Below, piece after piece: positions 29,859 to 63,780 of a DNA stretch of 64,000 nucleotides. This DNA comes from Lachnospiraceae bacterium. GTDB lineage: Bacteria > Bacillota > Clostridia > Lachnospirales > Lachnospiraceae. The stretch covers positions 1 through 64,000 of the forward strand of contig JAAWBG010000049.1 in assembly GCA_022792535.1 (NCBI GenBank), given 5' to 3'. Both the position numbers and the translations under genes were made by a program. The stretch's first letter is position 1; every line of letters starts with the position of its first letter. The notes below the pieces were generated by a model that did no database searches, had not been told where the DNA came from, and saw only the letters and a program-made list of their open reading frames with translations.

Positions 29859-30770
29859 TCAATAGTATACTTCACAGGACATACCCGCATCTGGATTCTT
29901 AACCTTTACTACCTTACTCTTATTTCCTGCCATGTCTTTCAGATATACTTTATAGTATTCTGCCTCATCGGAATAAGGAAGCATAATAAATTGCCAGTCA
30001 TTATCTAAAATCACGCCTACTTCTGTCCACCAGTTATCTTCACCCTTAAAATAAATTTTAGTTCCTACTTCTCCTTTTACATAAAAAACATAGCTGCTAT
30101 CTATCTTTACCCTCGGAGCTTCAGGTGCAATCACATCCTTTATGGTTCGGGTCACGATCTTACTTCTGCTATTTCCTTTTTTCAGATAAAAGTACAGATT
30201 CCCCTCTTTCTGCGCTGGAATCGTAATTTTCTTTTTTTCTGATTTTTTAAACTTTACCGTTTTCAGCGTTTTCTTGTCATTTTTGATCACCAGCTTTGTT
30301 CCTTTAGCGGCAGTGACATTCACTTTGGTGGTTTTATTGGTAATGGTTTTCTGTACCTTGGGCTTCTGAATCTTATCATCAAGAGTTTCTGTTGAAATTG
30401 CTGGAAGTTTAACTACCTTTCGGGTGATAATTTTTCCCCTTTTCCCGGAAATGTCTGCCACAAGATAAAATTTCAATTTACTTCCGGCTTTCTGTTTCGC
30501 AATCTTTACCTTTTTCAATCCTTCTTCTTTATAGAATTTTTTATAAACTGTATGTGTTCCATTTTTAATATAAAGAGTGGTATCCTCATACACATACACC
30601 GGAATCGCTGTGGTCCGTTCTGTTATTTCTTTTAATAATACTTTGGGAGTATACTGAATCTCCTCTGGCGGCGGACTAGTATTTGCTTTTACCAATATTG
30701 GCTGTATGCTTGTGATTGTAAGTATACACATTAGTAACGATAAGAAACATTTTTTTACTTTTCTTTTCAT
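29859..30770 (-). CDS. Secreted protein with tandem Ig-like domains
   Basis: A 303-residue exported protein. The signal peptide is basic plus hydrophobic (about 4-28, ending near VKA). Three blocks follow that resemble bacterial Ig-like (OmpW/Big-type) domains: KVLLKEITERTTAIPVYVY, KVQKTITNKTTKVNVTAAKG and APEAPRVKIDSSYVFYVKGE. Each continues with a 'G-k-i-t/v-t-r' type ending and the last with YLKDMAGNKSKVVKV. It is very lysine rich. The start at 30770 follows GGAGA by 7 nt. It is the last gene before the strong terminator and may be co-transcribed with the secreted metzincin cluster upstream. Confidence 0.7.
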   Translation of the reverse strand: MKRKVKKCFLSLLMCILTITSIQPILVKANTSPPPEEIQYTPKVLLKEITERTTAIPVYVYEDTTLYIKNGTHTVYKKFYKEEGLKKVKIAKQKAGSKLKFYLVADISGKRGKIITRKVVKLPAISTETLDDKIQKPKVQKTITNKTTKVNVTAAKGTKLVIKNDKKTLKTVKFKKSEKKKITIPAQKEGNLYFYLKKGNSRSKIVTRTIKDVIAPEAPRVKIDSSYVFYVKGEVGTKIYFKGEDNWWTEVGVILDNDWQFIMLPYSDEAEYYKVYLKDMAGNKSKVVKVKNPDAGMSCEVYY

Positions 30771-30813
30771 GCCCATTCTCCTTTTAATACCTAAAAAACA
30801 TTTTTATTTTTAA

Positions 30814-30916
30814 GAACAAAGCGGACAGGTCCGCTTCAACTCCCTGAATCCCTCACTCATGAGGGACCTGGACGGTTTGCTGCGCCAAGCACAATTGCGA
30901 AGCAATCTTTTACCTC
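30814..30916 (-). repeat. 103-bp three-hairpin repeat element, copy 2
   Basis: Same 103-bp element as 1248-1350 in the opposite orientation (six substitutions). The three hairpins are preserved, including the changed bases in TCCCTC-ATGAGT-GAGGGA. It lies in the gap between two secreted-protein genes and touches no reading frame. Confidence 0.85.
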
Positions 30917-30936
30917 TTGTGCGAGTGCGCATATTA

Positions 30937-31001
30937 TTTTTATCTTATAGGAATATACTTTCACGCTTTAGCGTGACAAGGACTTTCCTATAAGATAAAA
31001 A
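30937..31001. repeat. Palindromic element with 17-bp perfect arms
   Basis: TTTTTATCTTATAGGAA (30937-30953) and TTCCTATAAGATAAAAA (30985-31001) are exact reverse complements. The loop holds its own hairpin, TCACGC-TTTA-GCGTGA (30961-30976). It lies just downstream of the PPC-like gene stop. It has no U-run outside the arms, so it is not a canonical terminator, although its arms start and end in T/A runs and it might stop transcription in either direction. Confidence 0.75.
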
Positions 31002-31003
31002 CA

Positions 31004-31819
31004 TTACTCCTTCAACCATGTTAGAGAATAATCAAATGCCGCTCTATTCGTTATCTTAGATACTGCAATATAATATGTGCCAGGTTGCGTTTTGTATTTC
31101 TTGCTATTTCGGATATATAACGTACCTCCATTTTGATCTTCGTAAATTCTATCCTTTATAATATGTTTCCTTTTTTTATTATTCAATTTATAAACATCAA
31201 CTTGCATTGTATCATCATTTGCGCAGCTATCCCCTTTTGCAATCTTTATTTTTACCAGCTCTTCTTTAGAAATTGTAAATTTGTAATATTGTCGTTGATC
31301 GCATGTTGTATCAAATCCAATCACTCCCACTCTTTTCTGATTCTTTTTTAAAGTTGTGGCTTTTGAATAAGAACTTCCACCTTCATTTTTATTTGTTGAA
31401 AAAGTATACGCAGCATATGCATTCTTTGTTCCTATGCAATTTATCCAAAAATAATATATCCCTGGTTTTCTTATGTAATAAACTGCGCTGGGAACCTTTG
31501 CCGTAAGATTCTTTGTCCCCTCCAACTCCGAATGAATTGGATCATTTTTACATAAGCTGGCAAATGCAGTCTGATTGTTCTTCAATCCTTTTACTTTTAA
31601 CTTTATTTTTCCAGGGCTTTTGATATTGATCTTATAGTATTTGGATTGTTCTGTCAGTTTACCTAACGCAACCTCTGTATTTTCTTTCCCTTTTATTTCA
31701 TTTATCTGCACCTTACTGATATCTGGACATAGCTCTTTCGCATAAACGCTGCTTACATTTCCTACCATTATTGCACTTATAATAGCTGCTATTATCGCTC
31801 TTTTCATTTTTTTTACCAT
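31004..31819 (-). CDS. Secreted PPC-like protein
   Basis: A 271-residue exported protein with a signal peptide ending near VYA (about residue 27). Two similar halves are visible: YYKINIKSPGKIKLKVKGLK...GIYYFWINC and YYKFTISKEELVKIKIAKGD...GTYYIAVSKI. The pattern 'yYkf-i---g-v-i-v...pGtYyi-v' is that of bacterial pre-peptidase C-terminal (PPC)-like beta-sandwich domains found on secreted proteases. Here it is a free-standing protein encoded 8 bp downstream of the metzincin gene. A role as an accessory or targeting module for that protease is inference. Confidence 0.65.
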   Translation of the reverse strand: MVKKMKRAIIAAIISAIMVGNVSSVYAKELCPDISKVQINEIKGKENTEVALGKLTEQSKYYKINIKSPGKIKLKVKGLKNNQTAFASLCKNDPIHSELEGTKNLTAKVPSAVYYIRKPGIYYFWINCIGTKNAYAAYTFSTNKNEGGSSYSKATTLKKNQKRVGVIGFDTTCDQRQYYKFTISKEELVKIKIAKGDSCANDDTMQVDVYKLNNKKRKHIIKDRIYEDQNGGTLYIRNSKKYKTQPGTYYIAVSKITNRAAFDYSLTWLKE

Positions 31820-31827
31820 TTTTCTAC

Positions 31828-32394
31828 CTACTTTCTTGTTGCATATTTTCCGCCTTTGATATCTGCCTTCGTCGGTTTTACAACTTCTTTATTTTCAATA
31901 CCATACATCAATTTGTCTCTATTTCTTTTTTCATAGAGATCTAGCAAACCTATTGCATGGCCAATCTCATGGGCCGCAATTGCTTGATTTCCAGATTTCC
32001 CTCTTTTACTCATTTGTCTTGTATTAAACCAAATTTCAAACTGTTGTATTTTTCCATTTCGTGAATCTCCCCATGTATATGTCCAAGCAAGCGATCTTGA
32101 ATCACTTTTTGTCATTACAACTTTATTTATAGATGAACTTTTTCTTTTTAAGGTTACAACCCCGCTGTCCTTCCAAACTTTTACCCCATAATTCATATAG
32201 CTTCTGTAAGTCTTATTCAAAGCAGAATCATCAAAAGTATCCGTTTTCTTCCTTAATTGTTTTGTACATACCATATACCCGGCCTTCTCACTTCCATATG
32301 CAACCATGGTTGCATAGACCGTTGTAGCTGATAATGCTGCAATCAGACAGATTGCAATCAACCCGTTCGTCATCCTTTTTATTATTTTTTTCAT
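31828..32394 (-). CDS. Secreted snapalysin/matrixin-like metzincin protease
   Basis: A 188-residue protein with a signal peptide at about 1-29 (ends near VYA). The zinc site is HEIGHAIGLLD (His142, Glu143, His146, Asp152), the HExxHxxGxxD form known from snapalysins and some matrixins. The Met-turn candidate is Met163 in KLMYG. The mature domain is only about 155 residues, with no propeptide cysteine switch evident. The ATG at 32394 follows GGGGAAAG; its first bases overlap the stop of the preceding gene. Predicted to be a small extracellular endopeptidase. Confidence 0.88.
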   Translation of the reverse strand: MKKIIKRMTNGLIAICLIAALSATTVYATMVAYGSEKAGYMVCTKQLRKKTDTFDDSALNKTYRSYMNYGVKVWKDSGVVTLKRKSSSINKVVMTKSDSRSLAWTYTWGDSRNGKIQQFEIWFNTRQMSKRGKSGNQAIAAHEIGHAIGLLDLYEKRNRDKLMYGIENKEVVKPTKADIKGGKYATRK

Positions 32395-32395
32395 A

Positions 32396-33013
32396 TCATT
32401 CTTTCCCCTCAATCACCTCTACCAATTCAGACTTATTTATAATTTCAGAATCATAAGGCAATTCTGCCTCTTTTTCCACCATCGCTTTGTTCCAGCTTCT
32501 CCTTGATTCATAGGTCTTTATATCTTCTTCCTCACTGGTAAGACCATCTGCAGGAAGTGTCTCAATTACCTGATTTCCAGAAACAAAATATTCTTTCAAA
32601 ATCCAATAAGTTCCTTTACATTCTGGATTGGCAGTTGCCTTTTTCATAGCCAGAATATATTTTTCCCCTTTTTCAAAAATAGGATTGTCACTGATCGGCA
32701 TTTTAACTGTTCCGTCTTGTAAAACTTCAATCTCTTCTTCCAGATTTCCTTTGTAAACATTCAATACTTTTGCTTTATGTACGGTTTGTGGAAATCCATC
32801 GCTACCCACTTCTTTCACAATCCCGTCAATTTGAATCTCCGCCACTGCGTCTGCTTCTTCTATACTTTCATCTAATGTGTAAGATTCCCTTGACGCGTGG
32901 ATGACACATTGCATATTATCCTCTTGTTTTGCATCCAAATACATTTTTGTCCCTGCAGCGCTGGACACAATTGTCAATGCCGCTATGAGCCCCAAAATTG
33001 TTCCCTTTCTCAT
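32396..33013 (-). CDS. Secreted OB/NTR-like protein
   Basis: A 205-residue exported protein with an N-terminal signal or anchor (about 4-24). The mature part has the pattern EEADAVAEIQIDGIVKE...HKAKVLNVYKGNLEEEIEVL...FEKGEKYILAMKK. This resembles the OB-fold/NTR-like arrangement of TIMP-type and related secreted proteins ('aD-v--g-v...v-v--vyKG----i-v...f--G-kYl-f'). Similarity is by eye and weak. The start is at 33013 after GAGGAGG. It is encoded directly before a metzincin and its stop overlaps that gene's start region, so a role as inhibitor or chaperone of the protease is an attractive inference. Confidence 0.6.
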   Translation of the reverse strand: MRKGTILGLIAALTIVSSAAGTKMYLDAKQEDNMQCVIHASRESYTLDESIEEADAVAEIQIDGIVKEVGSDGFPQTVHKAKVLNVYKGNLEEEIEVLQDGTVKMPISDNPIFEKGEKYILAMKKATANPECKGTYWILKEYFVSGNQVIETLPADGLTSEEEDIKTYESRRSWNKAMVEKEAELPYDSEIINKSELVEVIEGKE

Positions 33014-33065
33014 GTGTTCCTCCTCTTTGCTTCTCTTCCTTCCCATATCATTCCTGTGCTATACC

Positions 33066-33205
33066 TTAGAAGCCAAACATCTGCGCAAACGCGGCTGCCC
33101 GCTCATCGCTCACAAGAATAAATGAATATTTTTCCGGCCCTATCCAAAGAATATCTTCCAAAAATTCTTCCAAAATGGCATCAAGGCCATACAAAAATAA
33201 CCCAT
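33066..33205 (-). pseudogene. Small ORF with apparent -1 frameshift (46 codons if joined)
   Basis: An ATG at 33205 has an excellent GGGAGGG 7 nt upstream. In its own frame it gives a 21-residue aromatic peptide (MGYFCMALMPFWKNFWKIFF plus G), stop at 33140. If one T is added to the T5 run at 33194-33198, the frame becomes a 46-residue protein beginning MGYFLYGLDAILEEFLEDIL and ending FAQMFGF, stop at 33066. The second version has ordinary composition and ends just before the next gene's leader. So this is a small gene broken by a frameshift, a slippage-dependent gene, or a short peptide gene. The start codon lies in one arm of the hairpin at 33198-33259. Confidence 0.5.
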
Positions 33206-33259
33206 GGCAGTTCCCTCCCTTCCTGATATTTCAAAGGTAACAGATACTGCCATGGGTTA
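33198..33259 (-). terminator. Hairpin over a start codon, with T-rich tail
   Basis: TAACCCATGGCAG (33198-33210) and CTGCCATGGGTTA (33247-33259) are perfect 13-bp reverse complements separated by 36 bases. Read leftward, the second arm is followed by TTTTTG, so it can end transcripts coming from the sensor kinase gene. The same arm covers the start codon of the small ORF at 33205. Confidence 0.55.
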
Positions 33260-33300
33260 CAATCTTAACTTCTTAAACGGTCAGTTAAGTTCTTAAACGG
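33241..33300 (-). promoter_or_regulatory. Promoter region with LytTR-type direct repeats
   Basis: TTCTTAAACGG occurs twice on the plus strand (33270-33280 and 33290-33300), a 20-bp period; on the coding strand this is CCGTTTAAG, 11 bp, CCGTTTAAG. LytTR regulators such as AgrA bind pairs of 9-bp sites about two helical turns apart just upstream of a poor -35. A -10-like TATCTG lies at 33246-33241, about 24 bp past the inner repeat. The AgrA-like regulator gene is encoded just upstream. Together this suggests direct control of the metzincin cluster. Confidence 0.5.
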
Positions 33301-33311
33301 CTCTATTTACT

Positions 33312-34616
33312 TTACGCTGTATGATTTTTCAACACAACCTCTGCCGCAAATTTTGTCTCTTCTCTATTAATCTGAAGCATTCCATGATTGCGCTCTATGG
33401 TTTTTTTTACATTCTGAATCCCAATTCCATGATTTCTTTTATCCTTTTTCCTAGTTCTCAACATATCCTTTTTGTCTTTTACAACTTCAGCGCTGTTTTC
33501 AATTCTGATTTTCAGGTATTCTTTCCCTTGCTCTATCTGAACTTGAATATACTTTTCTGAATTCTGACATGTTTCCACCGCTTCCACTGCATTTTGCAGG
33601 AGATTTGCAAAAATAGTACACAGATCTACATCGCTGATTTCCAGGACAGTATTTAGTTTTCCTGACAGACTGACGCTTGTATCTTCATCCACCGCAGAGC
33701 CATAGTGGTTTAGCAGGACGTCTAGAACTTTATTTCCCGTAACAAAAGATTTTTTTTGAAGAACGGTTATTTGTTCCTGCATACTATTAATATAATCTGA
33801 TACCGCTTTCGTATCTCCTTCTTTTGCCAATTCTTCCAGGCAGAGGAAATGATTATTCATATCATGGCGATACCTTCTGGTTCCCTCTTCTTTTTCTAAT
33901 AAAGTTTCATAATACTTTTCTTGCAATTTCTTTAAGGCTCTTTCTGTTTCCATAGATTTTTCTAATTTTTCATTCATGTTTTTTATATAAATGAGAAAGG
34001 CTCCTAACATCCCTACTGCAAAATAAGCAGCCGTACTGATAACATTTGCAAATAATTTAAAATTTGCATTAGGGACATATTCTCCTGCAAAACTCAGCCC
34101 AGAAATCGTCAGCATCATATCAATAACCATAAATACCACAAAAAAAATCATGCCTTTTCGAATAAAACGAATGATATTCTCTTTCTCCAAAATATGTTTC
34201 CGTTTATTCCACAAGCTAAATACTATTAAAATTACCAATGTAATAAAGCTGCTTAATCCATCTTGCCAGATTTCTGCAAATGTATTTTCTGACCTGACTT
34301 CCAAAACTACAGAAATAATTCCAGCAAAAATACTGTCTATACAAGAAAATACAAAAAACAACAGCAAAATCTTCTTTAACTTTTCTCTCCAAGGCTCTAT
34401 CACTGTCAGTAAAAGCACTGTCAGCAAAATACTATTCATAATGACATAAGTATCATCTTTCCATGGAGCAAATAAAACCCACAAAAGATACAGCGCTCCC
34501 CCTGCCGCAGCTACCCATTTCCTCTGTATCTCCACAGAAAAGCACATTCTCAGACCCAGCCAGTATTTCACGACTTCTATCAGAAAACAGCACAGCAGTA
34601 TCCCTTCCATTTGCAT
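33312..34616 (-). CDS. AgrC-like sensor histidine kinase (GHKL)
   Basis: A 434-residue protein with six or seven N-terminal membrane segments (to about 212), a coiled linker and a GHKL catalytic domain. The phospho-acceptor box is RRYRHDMNNHF (His251), typical of AgrC-type peptide-sensing kinases. The N box is TIFANLLQNAVEA and the G box KRNHGIGIQNVKKTIERNHG. The start is either 34616 or 34610. It is downstream of its LytTR partner by 74 bp. No agrB or agrD gene is present in the window, so the signal is unknown. Confidence 0.9.
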   Translation of the reverse strand: MQMEGILLCCFLIEVVKYWLGLRMCFSVEIQRKWVAAAGGALYLLWVLFAPWKDDTYVIMNSILLTVLLLTVIEPWREKLKKILLLFFVFSCIDSIFAGIISVVLEVRSENTFAEIWQDGLSSFITLVILIVFSLWNKRKHILEKENIIRFIRKGMIFFVVFMVIDMMLTISGLSFAGEYVPNANFKLFANVISTAAYFAVGMLGAFLIYIKNMNEKLEKSMETERALKKLQEKYYETLLEKEEGTRRYRHDMNNHFLCLEELAKEGDTKAVSDYINSMQEQITVLQKKSFVTGNKVLDVLLNHYGSAVDEDTSVSLSGKLNTVLEISDVDLCTIFANLLQNAVEAVETCQNSEKYIQVQIEQGKEYLKIRIENSAEVVKDKKDMLRTRKKDKRNHGIGIQNVKKTIERNHGMLQINREETKFAAEVVLKNHTA

Positions 34617-34690
34617 CCCCTTGTCATCCTTCCCAGCACAACTCTTATTTCTGTCTCATCCTTACATACTTTTCTCTATTTTTCTGCGCC

Positions 34691-35404
34691 TTATCGCCTG
34701 TAATGCAGATCAAATTCCAGATAGGCGTGTTCAAATTCCTTTTTCCTTCTTCTGGAAACTGGTATTTCCTGATTTTCCAAAAAAATCACGCCATTTTTAT
34801 AATTTTCAATCCAAAACATATTTACCAGATATTTACGGTGTACCCTAAAGAACAGCTTTGGTTCCATGATCTCTTCCATTTCTTCCAGAGAGCCTTCTTT
34901 GCGGAATAATTTCCCTTGTGCTCTTATCTCCACATAACTTCCATAAGCCGATATATAACAGATTTCCTTCTGCTTCAGCTCATAGGGATTCCGGTCAAGA
35001 TATACTTGTATGGTTTCTTGGCCGATTTTCTGGCTGAGGCAGCCCCGGATGGCTTCTTCGATCTCAGAGACTTCAAAAGGTTTTGTGACAAACCGGAACG
35101 CCTGAATCTGAAAAGCTTCCTTAAATCGTTCCACCATGCTGGTAGCCATAACAATCCGACAGTCTGGATGAAGATTCTGAATCTGTCTTCCTGTCTCGAT
35201 TCCATCCATTCCGGGCATATCAATATCCAAAAAGACCAGTTCCAGTTGATGGATCTGTGCAAGGAGAGCTTCCCCGGAAGAGAAGGTCCAGACCTCATAT
35301 TCCAGTTCCGCAGAAGCCGCCTGCACTGTCTTTTCTACCAGCTCTTTCAGGGCATTCCGTATGATCTCTTCATCGTCGCAGATTCCAATCATTAACTTTG
35401 GCAT
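34691..35404 (-). CDS. LytTR-family response regulator (AgrA-like)
   Basis: A 237-residue regulator. The receiver has Asp10/Asp11 and phospho-acceptor Asp60 (VFLDIDMPGMDG) and Lys in FVTKPFEV. The C-terminal LytTR DNA-binding domain covers about 138-235 (ICYISAYGSYVEIRAQGKLF, FFRVHRKYLVNMFWIE, IPVSRRRKKEFEHAY). It lies 22 bp downstream of the double zinc-ribbon gene and upstream of the AgrC-like kinase. Probable target: the repeats at 33270-33300. Confidence 0.93.
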   Translation of the reverse strand: MPKLMIGICDDEEIIRNALKELVEKTVQAASAELEYEVWTFSSGEALLAQIHQLELVFLDIDMPGMDGIETGRQIQNLHPDCRIVMATSMVERFKEAFQIQAFRFVTKPFEVSEIEEAIRGCLSQKIGQETIQVYLDRNPYELKQKEICYISAYGSYVEIRAQGKLFRKEGSLEEMEEIMEPKLFFRVHRKYLVNMFWIENYKNGVIFLENQEIPVSRRRKKEFEHAYLEFDLHYRR

Positions 35405-35426: not shown

Positions 35427-38210
35427 TCAATGGTTTGCCTGATTGCCGCATTTTGGACAGGTATTGCCGCCCCGGTAAGTATATCCGCATCGGTAGCAGC
35501 ATTTTACCTCATGTTTTTCCTTTGCCAGATATGCAATACTTCTGGACTCTGGTTTTTCCTGAAGATAAGAGACAAAGCCTCCCAGAAGGCTGGCGAAGGT
35601 TTTCAATTCTTTTGCCGGGATTCCTCCTGGTATTTTGGTTTTTACCCCATTTCCACGATTGATATAGATTCCTCGGTTCAAAAGACCTGTATTTCCTTCC
35701 ATTCCCACAATATTTCGAATGGGGATCATCTCGCTGTTAAAGGTACTGTTATAGAAAATATGATCCGGCGTCAGCACAAATCCTTCTTTTCCATTTTTTT
35801 TGCCGGAAGAGTCACAGACCAAAATGGGATATTCATACCGGTCTCTCTCACTGGCGTATGTATTTAAGGCCAGGGCCACCAGCTCTGCTTCCCTTGGAGA
35901 CCATTCTCCCCTCATAATACGGCGCACTTCATAGAAATGAAGCCTTTCTGTATCTTTGATCTTTCCCTGAAGCGTATTTTTTAATTTTTCCACTAAAAGT
36001 TCGCACTCATCCATTTTCAGTTTTGTCAGCCGCTTATCAATCATTTCCAGCGTGTCCGTTTTCAGCTCCGGCAAAAAGGGACCGCCTTCCACCTTCTCAT
36101 AGGCTTCCGCCGCCTCGTCAAAGGTCATCCGCATAATATTAGGGCACATTTTATCAATTACCTTTTCATCAATGGCCCGTACTCTGGCTGTGATCTCTTC
36201 TATGGCTGGCTCTGCTTGTTCTTTAGAAAATCCGTCTTCTTTTAGTTGTTTCAGCATCCGCATCAATCCGTTCCGGTCGCATCGCTCCGCCCGTTTCAGC
36301 ATTTTGGCAATGTCCCGTTTCTCCGCCAGCCTCCGCTTGCCTTCTAAAACCTCCTGGTAAGCAGAGATATCTGCATCCTGGTATTGATCCAACTTTTCCC
36401 GGAATGTCTGATACTGACTGCGGCTCATGTCTTCCGGCACACTGCCAATCAATTTTTCTGCTTCTTCTTTCCCCTTCTTTTTCATTCTCTCTTTCAGATC
36501 TTCCAACACGTCTGCTTTCACTGTCTCGGAACATTCTGCCTGGGAAATCTCTTCGATCACACGTTTTAAAATTCCATAAGGTTTATCTTTGCAAGTTTCT
36601 GCTTTTTTGCGGATCTCTTCTTCCTCTTTCTGATAAACCGCCTGTTTGATCTGCCTTGCATACTTCTCTTTTTCCACCCATTCCAGATTATCGTCCGCCT
36701 GAATCTGATCCCGCAGTCCTCGCAGCTGCTGCAGAGACATGCGGTTCAACACCTTCATGTGAGCGTCATACTTTTCTTTAGAAGGCACATCCTCTTCTGC
36801 AGATTTTTCTTGTCCCCTTCCAGACGCTTTTTCTACCTTTCCTCTTCTGCGCTTTTCCTTTTTCTCTGCCTTCTCTTTTTTTCCAAATCCTTCTCTTTTT
36901 CCTGTCTCTTCTTTCTTTTCTGACTGATATTCCCCGTCAATTCTTCCTGGTGTTTCTATCTCTTCCTGCGAAATTCCTTCTGATTCTTCTTTTTGTTTTC
37001 TCTCTAGTTCCCTCTCTCGTCTTCCCTTTTCATCGTTTTTCTCTGTCTGATCTTCCTCAGAATGGTTATCCCTTACTCTCTCTTTTTTATTGGACTGTGA
37101 TTTCTTCCCAGAATCTTGTCCTTCTTTTCTTTTCCGAATCAGATCTTCTAGCTTTTCCCGATAAGGTTCTGTCTGCATCAGCGGGAAGAATCCTGTGTCC
37201 ATCTCCTCCTCCAGATTTTCCAGCTCCTCTTCTGTCATATGCTCCATATCTGCACATGCTTCTTCCAGAGAAGGCACCGCGTGTTTTCCCCGTTCCGAAG
37301 CGAATTCATTAAAATTACAATTCGACGTCCGCTCTGCTTTGCTGCCCAGAAGTTCCAGATAATCTTCATAGGCTTCTCGATCGCCGCCGAACTTCATGGT
37401 ATAATTGTCCCCTTCCCGCAGCAATCTGCCTGGTCTTGGGGTATAAAAAAGATTGCAGTTATTACAGGTATAACTTCTGGCCAGATAGACTCTTCCTTCT
37501 TCTGTCTCCACTGGGAATTCCTCGCCTTTAGGGTACACTCCCATATACATTTTCCTTCCGCAGCCTGGACACTGATAGCCGGTTACATAAAAATTATTGC
37601 CCAGACGAGAAGCCTTCTTTTCATATTCCCCAATGGTTCCCTTAGTAAAAGAAACTTTTTCCAGAGACCAGCGTATTTTATGCCAAAGCCCCAGACCTTT
37701 TTCTTCTTGACTTTCTTCTTGTTTCTCTTCTTTGATATCTTCTGCTTTGCGTTTTCCTTCTTCTAACGCTGCCTGAACCACCTCTTCATAGGTAATCTGG
37801 ACATTATTTTTATAAAAGCGAAAATTATCGTCCCGAAATCCCGGCGTCACTTTGATATCTTTTAAGATTGCATAGAACAGCCCATTGAGCTGCCGGTAAT
37901 CCTGCTCTACTTTTAACCCTTGGATGGCGCCCCATTTGCCAAACGCATACAAGGTCATATTCAGCACATTGGAAAGAGTTTCGTTATCAGCCACCGGTTC
38001 CATGTCTTCTTCCCTGTCAGGCAGTTCAATTACATTTGTAATCACTTTTCCCTTTTCAAAATTAAAGATCAATGACCGTACATTTCCAGACAGAATCAAG
38101 AAATGATTCAATACCACAAAATTCCCCGTCCAGGTCACATTGGCACCCATGGATTTTATCATCCGGCCAAATACATTTTTCAATTCATCATTCGCTTTCA
38201 GCAAAATCAT
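35427..38210 (-). CDS. Large double zinc-ribbon protein of unknown function
   Basis: A 927-residue protein I do not recognise. A folded N-terminal region (1-150) is followed by a zinc ribbon (CPGCGRK at Cys214/217 and CNNCNLF at Cys249/252). An Arg/Lys/Glu-rich, probably disordered or coiled stretch lies at about 355-500, then helical repeats (about 510-760). A beta-rich block (EGFVLTPDHIFYNS...IPIRNIVGMEG...YINRGNGVKTKI) looks like a bacterial PH-like domain, and a second zinc ribbon ends the protein (Cys905, 908, 918, 921). No signal peptide. AGAAGGTG precedes the ATG. It is in line with the LytTR two-component genes 22 bp downstream and may be co-transcribed. Confidence 0.8.
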   Translation of the reverse strand: MILLKANDELKNVFGRMIKSMGANVTWTGNFVVLNHFLILSGNVRSLIFNFEKGKVITNVIELPDREEDMEPVADNETLSNVLNMTLYAFGKWGAIQGLKVEQDYRQLNGLFYAILKDIKVTPGFRDDNFRFYKNNVQITYEEVVQAALEEGKRKAEDIKEEKQEESQEEKGLGLWHKIRWSLEKVSFTKGTIGEYEKKASRLGNNFYVTGYQCPGCGRKMYMGVYPKGEEFPVETEEGRVYLARSYTCNNCNLFYTPRPGRLLREGDNYTMKFGGDREAYEDYLELLGSKAERTSNCNFNEFASERGKHAVPSLEEACADMEHMTEEELENLEEEMDTGFFPLMQTEPYREKLEDLIRKRKEGQDSGKKSQSNKKERVRDNHSEEDQTEKNDEKGRRERELERKQKEESEGISQEEIETPGRIDGEYQSEKKEETGKREGFGKKEKAEKKEKRRRGKVEKASGRGQEKSAEEDVPSKEKYDAHMKVLNRMSLQQLRGLRDQIQADDNLEWVEKEKYARQIKQAVYQKEEEEIRKKAETCKDKPYGILKRVIEEISQAECSETVKADVLEDLKERMKKKGKEEAEKLIGSVPEDMSRSQYQTFREKLDQYQDADISAYQEVLEGKRRLAEKRDIAKMLKRAERCDRNGLMRMLKQLKEDGFSKEQAEPAIEEITARVRAIDEKVIDKMCPNIMRMTFDEAAEAYEKVEGGPFLPELKTDTLEMIDKRLTKLKMDECELLVEKLKNTLQGKIKDTERLHFYEVRRIMRGEWSPREAELVALALNTYASERDRYEYPILVCDSSGKKNGKEGFVLTPDHIFYNSTFNSEMIPIRNIVGMEGNTGLLNRGIYINRGNGVKTKIPGGIPAKELKTFASLLGGFVSYLQEKPESRSIAYLAKEKHEVKCCYRCGYTYRGGNTCPKCGNQANH

Positions 38211-63515: not shown

Positions 63516-63780
63516 TCCGAGCAGCTGGGGCGGTAGCGGTGCCCTGTACCAACAATCCGCTATAGTTGGAGTGATGCTTTGCCCCGGATTTTTGTCTGTG
63601 GGGCAGCCTTTTATAAGTGGTGATGACGTTTGGGTCTCGCGCAATGGAAATCTATGAACCGTGTCAGGTTGGGAACAAAGCAGCACTAAGTAGAACCTTT
63701 CATGTGCCGTGAGGGCGCCTGGACCGAACTAACTGTAGAAGTAACGCCCATGGCCATGATTCAAAGCAAAGCGCTCGGAT
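63516..63780 (+). ncRNA. ffs: Signal recognition particle RNA, large Bacillus type
   Basis: About 265 nt. The 5' end TCCGAGC pairs with the 3' end GCTCGGA, closing the long rod. The Ffh-binding domain is visible near 63660-63690: GTCAGGTTGGGAACAAAGCA then GCACTAAG. Relative to the common GGTCCGGAAGGAAGCAGC, the two pairs around the GGAA loop are changed to U-A and G-C, preserving the stem. The 5' part holds an Alu-like domain as in Bacillus scRNA. A good promoter is directly upstream of the RNA. Confidence 0.93.

Follow-up and report, generated by a model that had tools for sequence, protein, structure and literature searches.

The 64,000-nucleotide stretch analyzed here (hereafter the window; positions 1 to 64,000 of contig JAAWBG010000049.1, assembly GCA_022792535.1, from a Lachnospiraceae bacterium) carries on its minus strand, between positions 29859 and 35404, a two-component system followed by a candidate micropeptide gene and genes for four small secreted proteins, which together we consider as a putative peptide-signaling circuit. 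Below, relative genomes bear G-numbers, with G000 being the window's own (92.7% complete), and compared loci bear L-numbers. The locus begins with an AgrA-like LytTR response regulator (34691-35404), whose Response_reg (72 bits) and LytTR (63 bits) domains both exceed the Pfam cut-offs, and an AgrC-like GHKL histidine kinase (33312-34616; HATPase_c_5, 84 bits), in which R250, H251, D252 and H256 are invariant across an 11-row alignment and the N-terminal half is hydrophobic by eye. Behind the kinase lies a paired direct repeat, CCGTTTAAG-N11-CCGTTTAAG (33272-33300), with copies 20 bp apart and a pattern kept in relatives, which is the presumed site of the LytTR regulator. Shuffling the region 200 times never yielded a direct repeat this good, and within the genome the strict pattern occurs only here; a looser pattern (three mismatches) offered one candidate second site, which was rejected as being at chance level because the reversed control pattern also matched once per strand. 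Directly 3′ of the repeats, the sequence and an alignment of relatives predict a promoter, TTGTAA-17-TACCTT (33234-33262), which a promoter scan of the window did not list; its -10 element is weak in the window and reads TACTAT in L042 and L051. The GHKL membrane kinase, the LytTR regulator and the direct repeats ahead of a presumed promoter are features of Agr loci, and judged by sequence they support a two-component system of the AgrC/AgrA kind with repeats heading a secreted operon. A preliminary description of this DNA had reported the regulator, the kinase, the paired repeats and the four secreted-protein genes, all of which, with their coordinates, are borne out by the open reading frame (ORF) list, Pfam and the sequence.

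That description had also held that agrB and agrD are absent and that the signal would hence come from elsewhere. The first statement is sound: AgrB (PF04647) has no match in the window's genome, nor in G007 and G064, which like it carry micropeptide loci (9 of the 12 genomes searched do have AgrB), and a 21-aa ORF at the locus has neither leader nor tail. The second is not needed, as this ORF, overlooked in that description, is a candidate peptide gene inside the locus itself. Reading from the kinase stop toward the next secreted-protein gene, the two repeats and the promoter are followed by a ribosome site (AGGGAGGG) and the ATG…TAG frame of MGYFCMALMPFWKNFWKIFFG (33140-33205; 21 codons), a Trp/Phe-rich peptide of 21 residues without a leader, tail or double-glycine site. 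When relatives were reached via the kinase, the same stretch was found to hold repeats and a short ORF in G014 (MGYFAMALMPVWMKWLKNFFG), G025 (MGYFDLALMPVWMKWLKKFFG), G023 (MDYFYLNVTSLWKDFFELIFPIK) and G022 (MGYLDVSLRSLWDDVIKYIFPIT), and more distant relatives have short ORFs such as MLLTGGSWWYDFWKKIFG and MFLINEEVSTYGWGFWDGIWKWICG. Because no AgrB was found in the genome, a peptide signal of the window would be AgrB-independent.

Short ORFs of this kind recur behind related kinases. Kinase matches were obtained in 41 of 195 relatives (E 1e-25) and in 43 of 397 genomes of the family (E 1e-50); scoring was limited to the best 8 or 4 candidates of each genome and the flanking DNA was analyzed for part of them, which left 90 different kinase ORFs or pieces no shorter than 150 aa, the lowest scoring 50 bits. 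With fixed peptide criteria (an ATG, 10-30 aa, a ribosome site, at least one W, at least three W/F/Y and a position at most 350 nt downstream), a micropeptide was recovered behind 42 of the 90 kinase ORFs versus 7 of 310 other genes, and 50 dinucleotide shuffles gave a mean of 3.1 and a maximum of 7 of 90. By kinase score the fractions are 12/13 (at least 400 bits), 3/6 (300-400), 13/28 (200-300), 11/28 (170-200), 3/14 (100-170) and 0/1 (below 100 bits). The repeats, sought as ACCGTTYA occurring twice with a period of 20 or 21 and at most 4 mismatches, accompany 50 of the 90 kinase ORFs; the corresponding figures are 13 of 317 for controls and 71 of 1800 for mononucleotide shuffles. Entries that have a peptide show the repeats in 36 of 43 cases and those lacking one in 14 of 47 (43 rather than 42, as L067 comprises two kinase pieces under one name). 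With a direct-repeat test that presupposes no motif, 23 of the 42 peptide loci reached p 0.05. Beyond the family the picture is different: the kinase model matched in 8 of 371 genomes of the class (the window's included), none of the six kinase loci outside the family has ACCGTTYA repeats, and three of these six, all of one genus and with near-identical peptides, have instead a double-glycine-type peptide ORF right after the kinase, as does one locus of the same order. Such ORFs follow 3 of the 90 kinase ORFs (those of L097 and L035 look spurious) versus 4 of 305 controls. Relatives of the kinase at E up to 1e-20 number one record in phages, 43% covered at 36% identity, and none in plasmids.

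A chance ORF is rejected by the control genes, the shuffles and the codon-position pattern. Differences at codon positions 1/2/3, summed over pairs, come to 93/62/127 for six core-system peptides and 8/11/19 for three peptides of the window clade; third positions thus vary most. A longer overlapping frame (33066-33230, 54 aa), which as a query matched the downstream region in G014 and G025, was taken as incidental because codon positions favor the 21-codon frame and it is closed (by eye) in L042 and L051. Separately, six genomes of the genus share a second kinase-peptide system (L034, L108, L036, L112, L030 and L106) with peptides such as MLRSNNEDLWEWLKRLFGW, in which the peptide lies ~180 nt behind the kinase, the repeats are near the kinase stop and conserved non-coding sequence stands between them.

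The peptides, 11-25 aa long, are rich in W (13.3%), F (12.5%) and L (13.3%) across the 41 compared, have net charges from -6 to +3 and contain Cys in 6 of the 41, and their W/F-rich C-terminal ends recur ahead of unrelated cargo. No Pfam model matches any of the ten peptides tested, and in NCBIfam these ten gave two sub-threshold matches, to PSM_epsilon and BlpC, both from one and the same peptide, with the window peptide giving none. In Staphylococcus aureus the phenol-soluble modulins (PSMs) and delta-haemolysin are under the LytTR regulator AgrA. Such a composition in leaderless peptides, the weak PSM_epsilon match of 1 of the 10, the position of the micropeptide as the first ORF ahead of secreted products and the binding of S. 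aureus AgrA to direct repeats upstream of P2 and P3 (PMC4227749) all fit the main rival to a signaling role, namely that the micropeptide is an amphipathic effector like the PSMs or delta-haemolysin, induced by the LytTR regulator, with the kinase responding to some other cue. We nonetheless regard this as rather unlikely: the spread of net charge is unlike that of a uniform membrane-active effector, the micropeptide stays beside the kinase even where no gene follows closely (G006, G026 and G007 near ATP-synthase genes, and core-system loci) and, as detailed below, it takes the place of agrBD before homologous cargo.

At three of these loci (G006, L045:7118-7290, plus strand; G026, L047:7136-7314, minus; G007, L048:10250-10417, plus) a second repeat-bearing promoter behind the micropeptide precedes a conserved stretch of ~170 nt, which in a consensus fold from the three sequences ends in a strong terminator-like hairpin. 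The stretch has no Rfam match and is possibly a regulator-controlled small RNA analogous to RNAIII. The sole Rfam match of the window itself, at 63517-63778 and far from the locus, is the bacterial large SRP (signal recognition particle) RNA (RF01854, 189 bits).

Downstream of the micropeptide in the window comes the secreted cassette. Its first gene (32396-33046) codes for a protein with a signal-peptide-like N terminus by eye, which the preliminary description had labeled NTR/OB-like, with accessory or inhibitor proteins of the protease proposed among the secreted products; an inhibitor role for this protein is hypothetical. The label is unconfirmed: searches of Pfam at E up to 1 and of NCBIfam at E up to 0.1 matched nothing, the PDB gave a single chain at E 1.4, and we use NTR-position protein as a positional name. 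A single nucleotide separates its stop from an ATG of the following gene, which encodes a small secreted metzincin-like protease (31828-32412; the listed ORF starts at TTG 32412, the likely start being ATG 32394). The HEXXHXXGXXD motif together with the Met-turn is the mark of the snapalysin-like metzincin family. Both are read directly in this protein, as HEIGHAIGLLD and LMYG, and H148, E149, H152, G155, D158, M169, Y170 and G171 are invariant in the three sequences available; all Pfam and NCBIfam matches, however, are below the cut-offs (Matrixin E 1.8e-4, Peptidase_M7 E 0.006), and among the PDB profile matches are leishmanolysin (E 0.004), stromelysins (E ~0.03) and the Streptomyces small neutral proteases (E 0.07). 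The third product (31004-31819) is indeed a secreted PPC-domain protein (PF04151, E 6e-8, above the cut-off), and the fourth (29859-30776) is a secreted protein whose proposed Ig-like nature is backed by Big_6 at E 7.8e-6, with a score (26.5 bits) just under the cut-off of 27.6. As described earlier, this fourth gene lies further on, past a repeat and a palindrome; by ORF ends the gap is 227 nt and not 233 bp. It contains a dispersed genomic repeat with palindromic ends (30800-31003), recognized by genome self-matches; we rejected it as a special feature of the locus, the ~190-bp element being an ordinary dispersed one with 80 matching pieces in the genome (the query and overlapping palindromic pieces included).

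Few further copies of the cassette genes were found: among the 195 relatives the NTR query matched in two and the metzincin in three, the window's genome included in both counts. The two metzincin loci outside the window are in G027 and G037. G027, of the same genus, has the NTR-metzincin-PPC succession (66% identity to the window for the NTR-position protein and 40% for the PPC protein), an IS110-type insertion (by eye) and then two Ig-like genes. Kinases of this family, the repeats and the micropeptide are all absent there; instead, two helix-turn-helix genes lie upstream (L006:7699-9599, plus strand), the second with TPR and RNPP_C domains (RNPP_C 26.8 bits, just above the cut-off of 26.5). 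In G037, on a 3.5-kb contig, the metzincin has directly upstream, in the NTR position, one secreted-protein gene that matches neither the NTR query nor any family. Hence, the protease and an upstream partner gene recur while their regulator changes. The two regulator types found beside the cassette, GHKL/LytTR and RNPP, both answer to peptides in other bacteria. The preliminary description had proposed that a signaling system controls the protease cassette, and had named the finding of the secreted genes usually apart from the two-component genes as evidence against this. The search for co-occurrence went partly that way, since G027 and G037 show the cassette or the metzincin apart from this pair; the control itself is consistent with the repeats heading the operon and with a kinase family that recurrently stands before repeats and secreted cargo, but the cassette is not tied to the pair. 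One could go further and suppose that the kinase and regulator answer an unrelated cue and that the cassette is loosely attached cargo at a variable site, for which the G027 arrangement and the many genomes (21 of 28, see below) with neither kind of two-component system at this site would speak. We consider this improbable, given that the repeats head the cassette operon with the strict pattern at no second genomic site, that secreted cargo recurs behind peptide loci and that the G027 neighbor is again, by its RNPP_C match, of a regulator type that responds to peptides elsewhere.

The cargo of the micropeptide loci is itself varied, comprising the protease cassette, an RHS protein, lanthipeptide enzymes and small secreted proteins. 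In G014 an RHS-repeat protein with an AHH nuclease domain lies directly behind the micropeptide (L041:2380-5919, minus strand); two similar 240-aa genes after it could code for immunity proteins. G006 has two LanM-type enzymes and a C39 ABC transporter behind the micropeptide, and in G110, where a radical SAM/SPASM protein is encoded downstream, the sole short ORF reads MVLLNLK. Within 150 nt, an ORF of at least 90 aa begins in 19 of the 42 peptide loci; by a simple hydrophobicity rule, 15 of the 19 products have a signal- or transmembrane-like N terminus, as against a background of 82 of 326 ORFs of at least 200 aa; L083, one of the 15, may be spurious.

The chromosomal site of the locus provides a link to agr. 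Upstream, and outside the circuit, lies ORF927 (35427-38210, minus strand; 927 aa), a core gene found in all 29 of the genus genomes; it gives no Pfam match above the cut-off and none in NCBIfam. This core gene without a family marks a variable site. We surveyed the 6-9 kb behind it in the 28 assessable genomes, with G001 left out as its contig ends. Five have a regulator at least 55% identical to that of the window: G000 and G023 with kinase and peptide at the site, G022 with the kinase in pieces and the peptide ~3 kb further, behind other ORFs, G014 with a kinase fragment (its complete regulator-kinase-peptide set lies ~14 kb away, later on that contig) and G025, where the site lacks a kinase. 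In two others, G006 and G026, the site is taken by an agr-type locus that includes AgrB and an AgrD-like ORF (recognized by eye behind AgrB), and the remaining 21 have neither two-component kind. G026 and G023 can be compared directly: in the former, agrA/agrC-like genes, AgrB and the AgrD-like ORF occupy the place where the latter has regulator, kinase and micropeptide, and the cargo behind the AgrD-like ORF is collinear and homologous with that behind the micropeptide. The ATPases are 57% identical (E 6e-80) and the other four products 22-26% (permease 1e-20, lipoprotein 2e-10, small secreted protein 4e-9 and permease 1e-4; all E-values being from a six-sequence set).

A further element, likewise absent from the preliminary description, touches the micropeptide start. 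A 14-bp perfect inverted repeat joins the promoter spacer (5′ arm, 33246-33259) to the micropeptide start codon (3′ arm, 33198-33211). Across five window-clade sequences 96% of cells are paired and 4 of 15 pairs are changed on both sides, a value reached by 3 of 500 shuffles, bearing in mind that relatedness alone can beat covariation shuffles in these five; sliding the arms by 1-3 columns lowers pairing to 32-51%. The long RNA folds better than shuffles (z -4.46) while the short RNA does not (z 0.09), and arm sequences differ in L044, L019, L059 and L093. As such a hairpin reaches p 0.05 in 7 of the 42 peptide loci, we take it to be a feature of some clades. Trp-rich leaders occur in attenuators. 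This parallel, the position of the ORF directly upstream of cargo and its start codon within the hairpin would suit an explanation in which the ORF acts in cis, as a leader peptide or spacer, and its translation rather than its product controls the downstream genes. We find this highly improbable: the 5′ arm lies upstream of the predicted transcript start, the short RNA is unstructured, no terminator-like site is listed between the peptide and the NTR-position gene, the ORF persists even at loci without a closely following gene and the W/F-rich ends recur before unrelated cargo.

Taken together, we lean toward an autoinduced two-component circuit with the AgrB-independent micropeptide as its likely signal, driving the secreted cassette. 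The anatomy and recurrence of the kinase-repeat-micropeptide arrangement are solid; gene order, repeats, recurrence, the coding signal and hairpin covariation are shown by the sequences themselves. The part of the proposal in which the micropeptide is the ligand of the kinase is the best available reading, with the chances about evenly divided. In the proposed circuit the kinase would sense the signal and phosphorylate the regulator, which would bind the paired repeats and turn on one operon encoding, in order, the leaderless 21-residue micropeptide, the NTR-position protein, the metzincin and the PPC protein, with the Ig-like gene perhaps reached by read-through or served by a separate promoter. 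The micropeptide, once translated, would be exported without AgrB and probably act on the kinase, closing a positive loop. In phage T4 gene e, translation is gated by a hairpin. By analogy, the hairpin here may prevent translation of the micropeptide from RNA that reads through from the kinase operon; because the pairing of spacer and start codon would block such RNA, only RNA begun at the activated promoter would make the micropeptide.

Several observations weigh against this proposal. No scored micropeptide follows 48 of the 90 kinase ORFs, though some of these, such as L084 and L072, look like misses; both G834 kinases, of the same family, have neither repeats nor micropeptide; and the counts over kinases are not independent because the kinases are related. 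Nonsynonymous codon changes exceed synonymous ones in pairwise comparison (106 vs 72 in the core system, 18 vs 9 in the window clade), an excess that is expected only of a fast-changing peptide. One micropeptide weakly resembles PSM_epsilon (E 0.0019, 18 bits vs a cut-off of 33), and we noticed no gene for dedicated export or processing next to the peptide of the window. Peptide similarity tracks the N- and C-terminal halves of the kinase about equally (partial r 0.19 and 0.18; 0.05 and 0.20, respectively, for pairs below 50% N-terminal identity), a pattern that does not speak for co-evolution with the receptor. Only 7 of the 42 peptide loci reach p 0.05 for the hairpin (~2 expected), and the covariation measure of further pair types is not above shuffles (179/500). 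To these is added the G027 cassette described above.

To our knowledge, ligands have yet to be assigned to many GHKL/LytTR sensor pairs of Lachnospiraceae, and genes as short as 15-25 codons normally escape annotation. The kinase and tiny-peptide arrangement with its varied secreted cargo points to what may be an undescribed type of bacterial peptide signaling. In its broadest form, which we hold to be as probable as its converse, Lachnospiraceae would have widespread AgrB-independent, leaderless Trp/Phe-rich pheromones encoded behind their own GHKL kinases, switched through ACCGTTYA, undergoing module swapping with agrBDCA, joined to exchangeable secreted cargo (proteases, RHS proteins and lanthipeptide enzymes) and, in some clades, with a hairpin blocking read-through translation. 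Should the micropeptides prove to be ligands, synthetic peptides would allow direct tests of dozens of orphan receptor-ligand pairs, and the genes that follow, for secreted proteases, RHS proteins and lanthipeptides, could be predicted as regulons; it would also mean that an Agr-type circuit can have its signal half replaced, at one and the same site, by something simpler. Even as effectors, they would form a large group of regulated amphipathic peptides, so far unannotated, in common gut bacteria and be worth study.

Among the top-ranked titles and abstract openings in searches of the open-licence literature, none describes Trp-rich leaderless peptides beside GHKL/LytTR pairs, which is not a claim of their absence from print. 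Among known systems, ComCDE/Blp shares the kinase/regulator superfamily, and some loci outside the family have a double-glycine peptide ORF after the kinase; the micropeptides, in contrast, have no leader or double-glycine site, and the window shows no linked peptidase-ABC exporter gene. In the RNPP class (SHP/Rgg, XIP/ComR and the leaderless RopB type) small hydrophobic peptides control secreted products. The likeness extends to small hydrophobic peptides and to the RNPP_C regulator beside the G027 cassette, but the receptor here would be a membrane kinase and not a cytoplasmic regulator. The protease resembles snapalysin (M7) and other metzincins in HEXXHXXGXXD, LMYG and its PDB profile matches, and departs from them in its sub-threshold family matches. 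PSMs and delta-haemolysin are likewise short, leaderless and amphipathic, but the micropeptide is linked to its own kinase gene and its sole PSM-model match is below the cut-off. With Agr (agrBDCA, with its Fsr and VirSR relatives) the locus shares the GHKL kinase, the LytTR regulator, the paired repeats ahead of a presumed promoter and secreted products, as well as the chromosomal site, taken by a true agr-type locus in G006 and G026. In addition, the LanM-type genes behind the G006 micropeptide parallel the lanM-like genes reported directly downstream of putative agr operons in several Clostridium species (PMC10301443). Against this, the window locus is devoid of agrB and agrD, and its kind of micropeptide is leaderless, mostly without Cys and encoded behind the kinase. 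Since AgrB and AgrD were looked for and not found, we place the locus outside Agr, as a variant of two-component peptide signaling.

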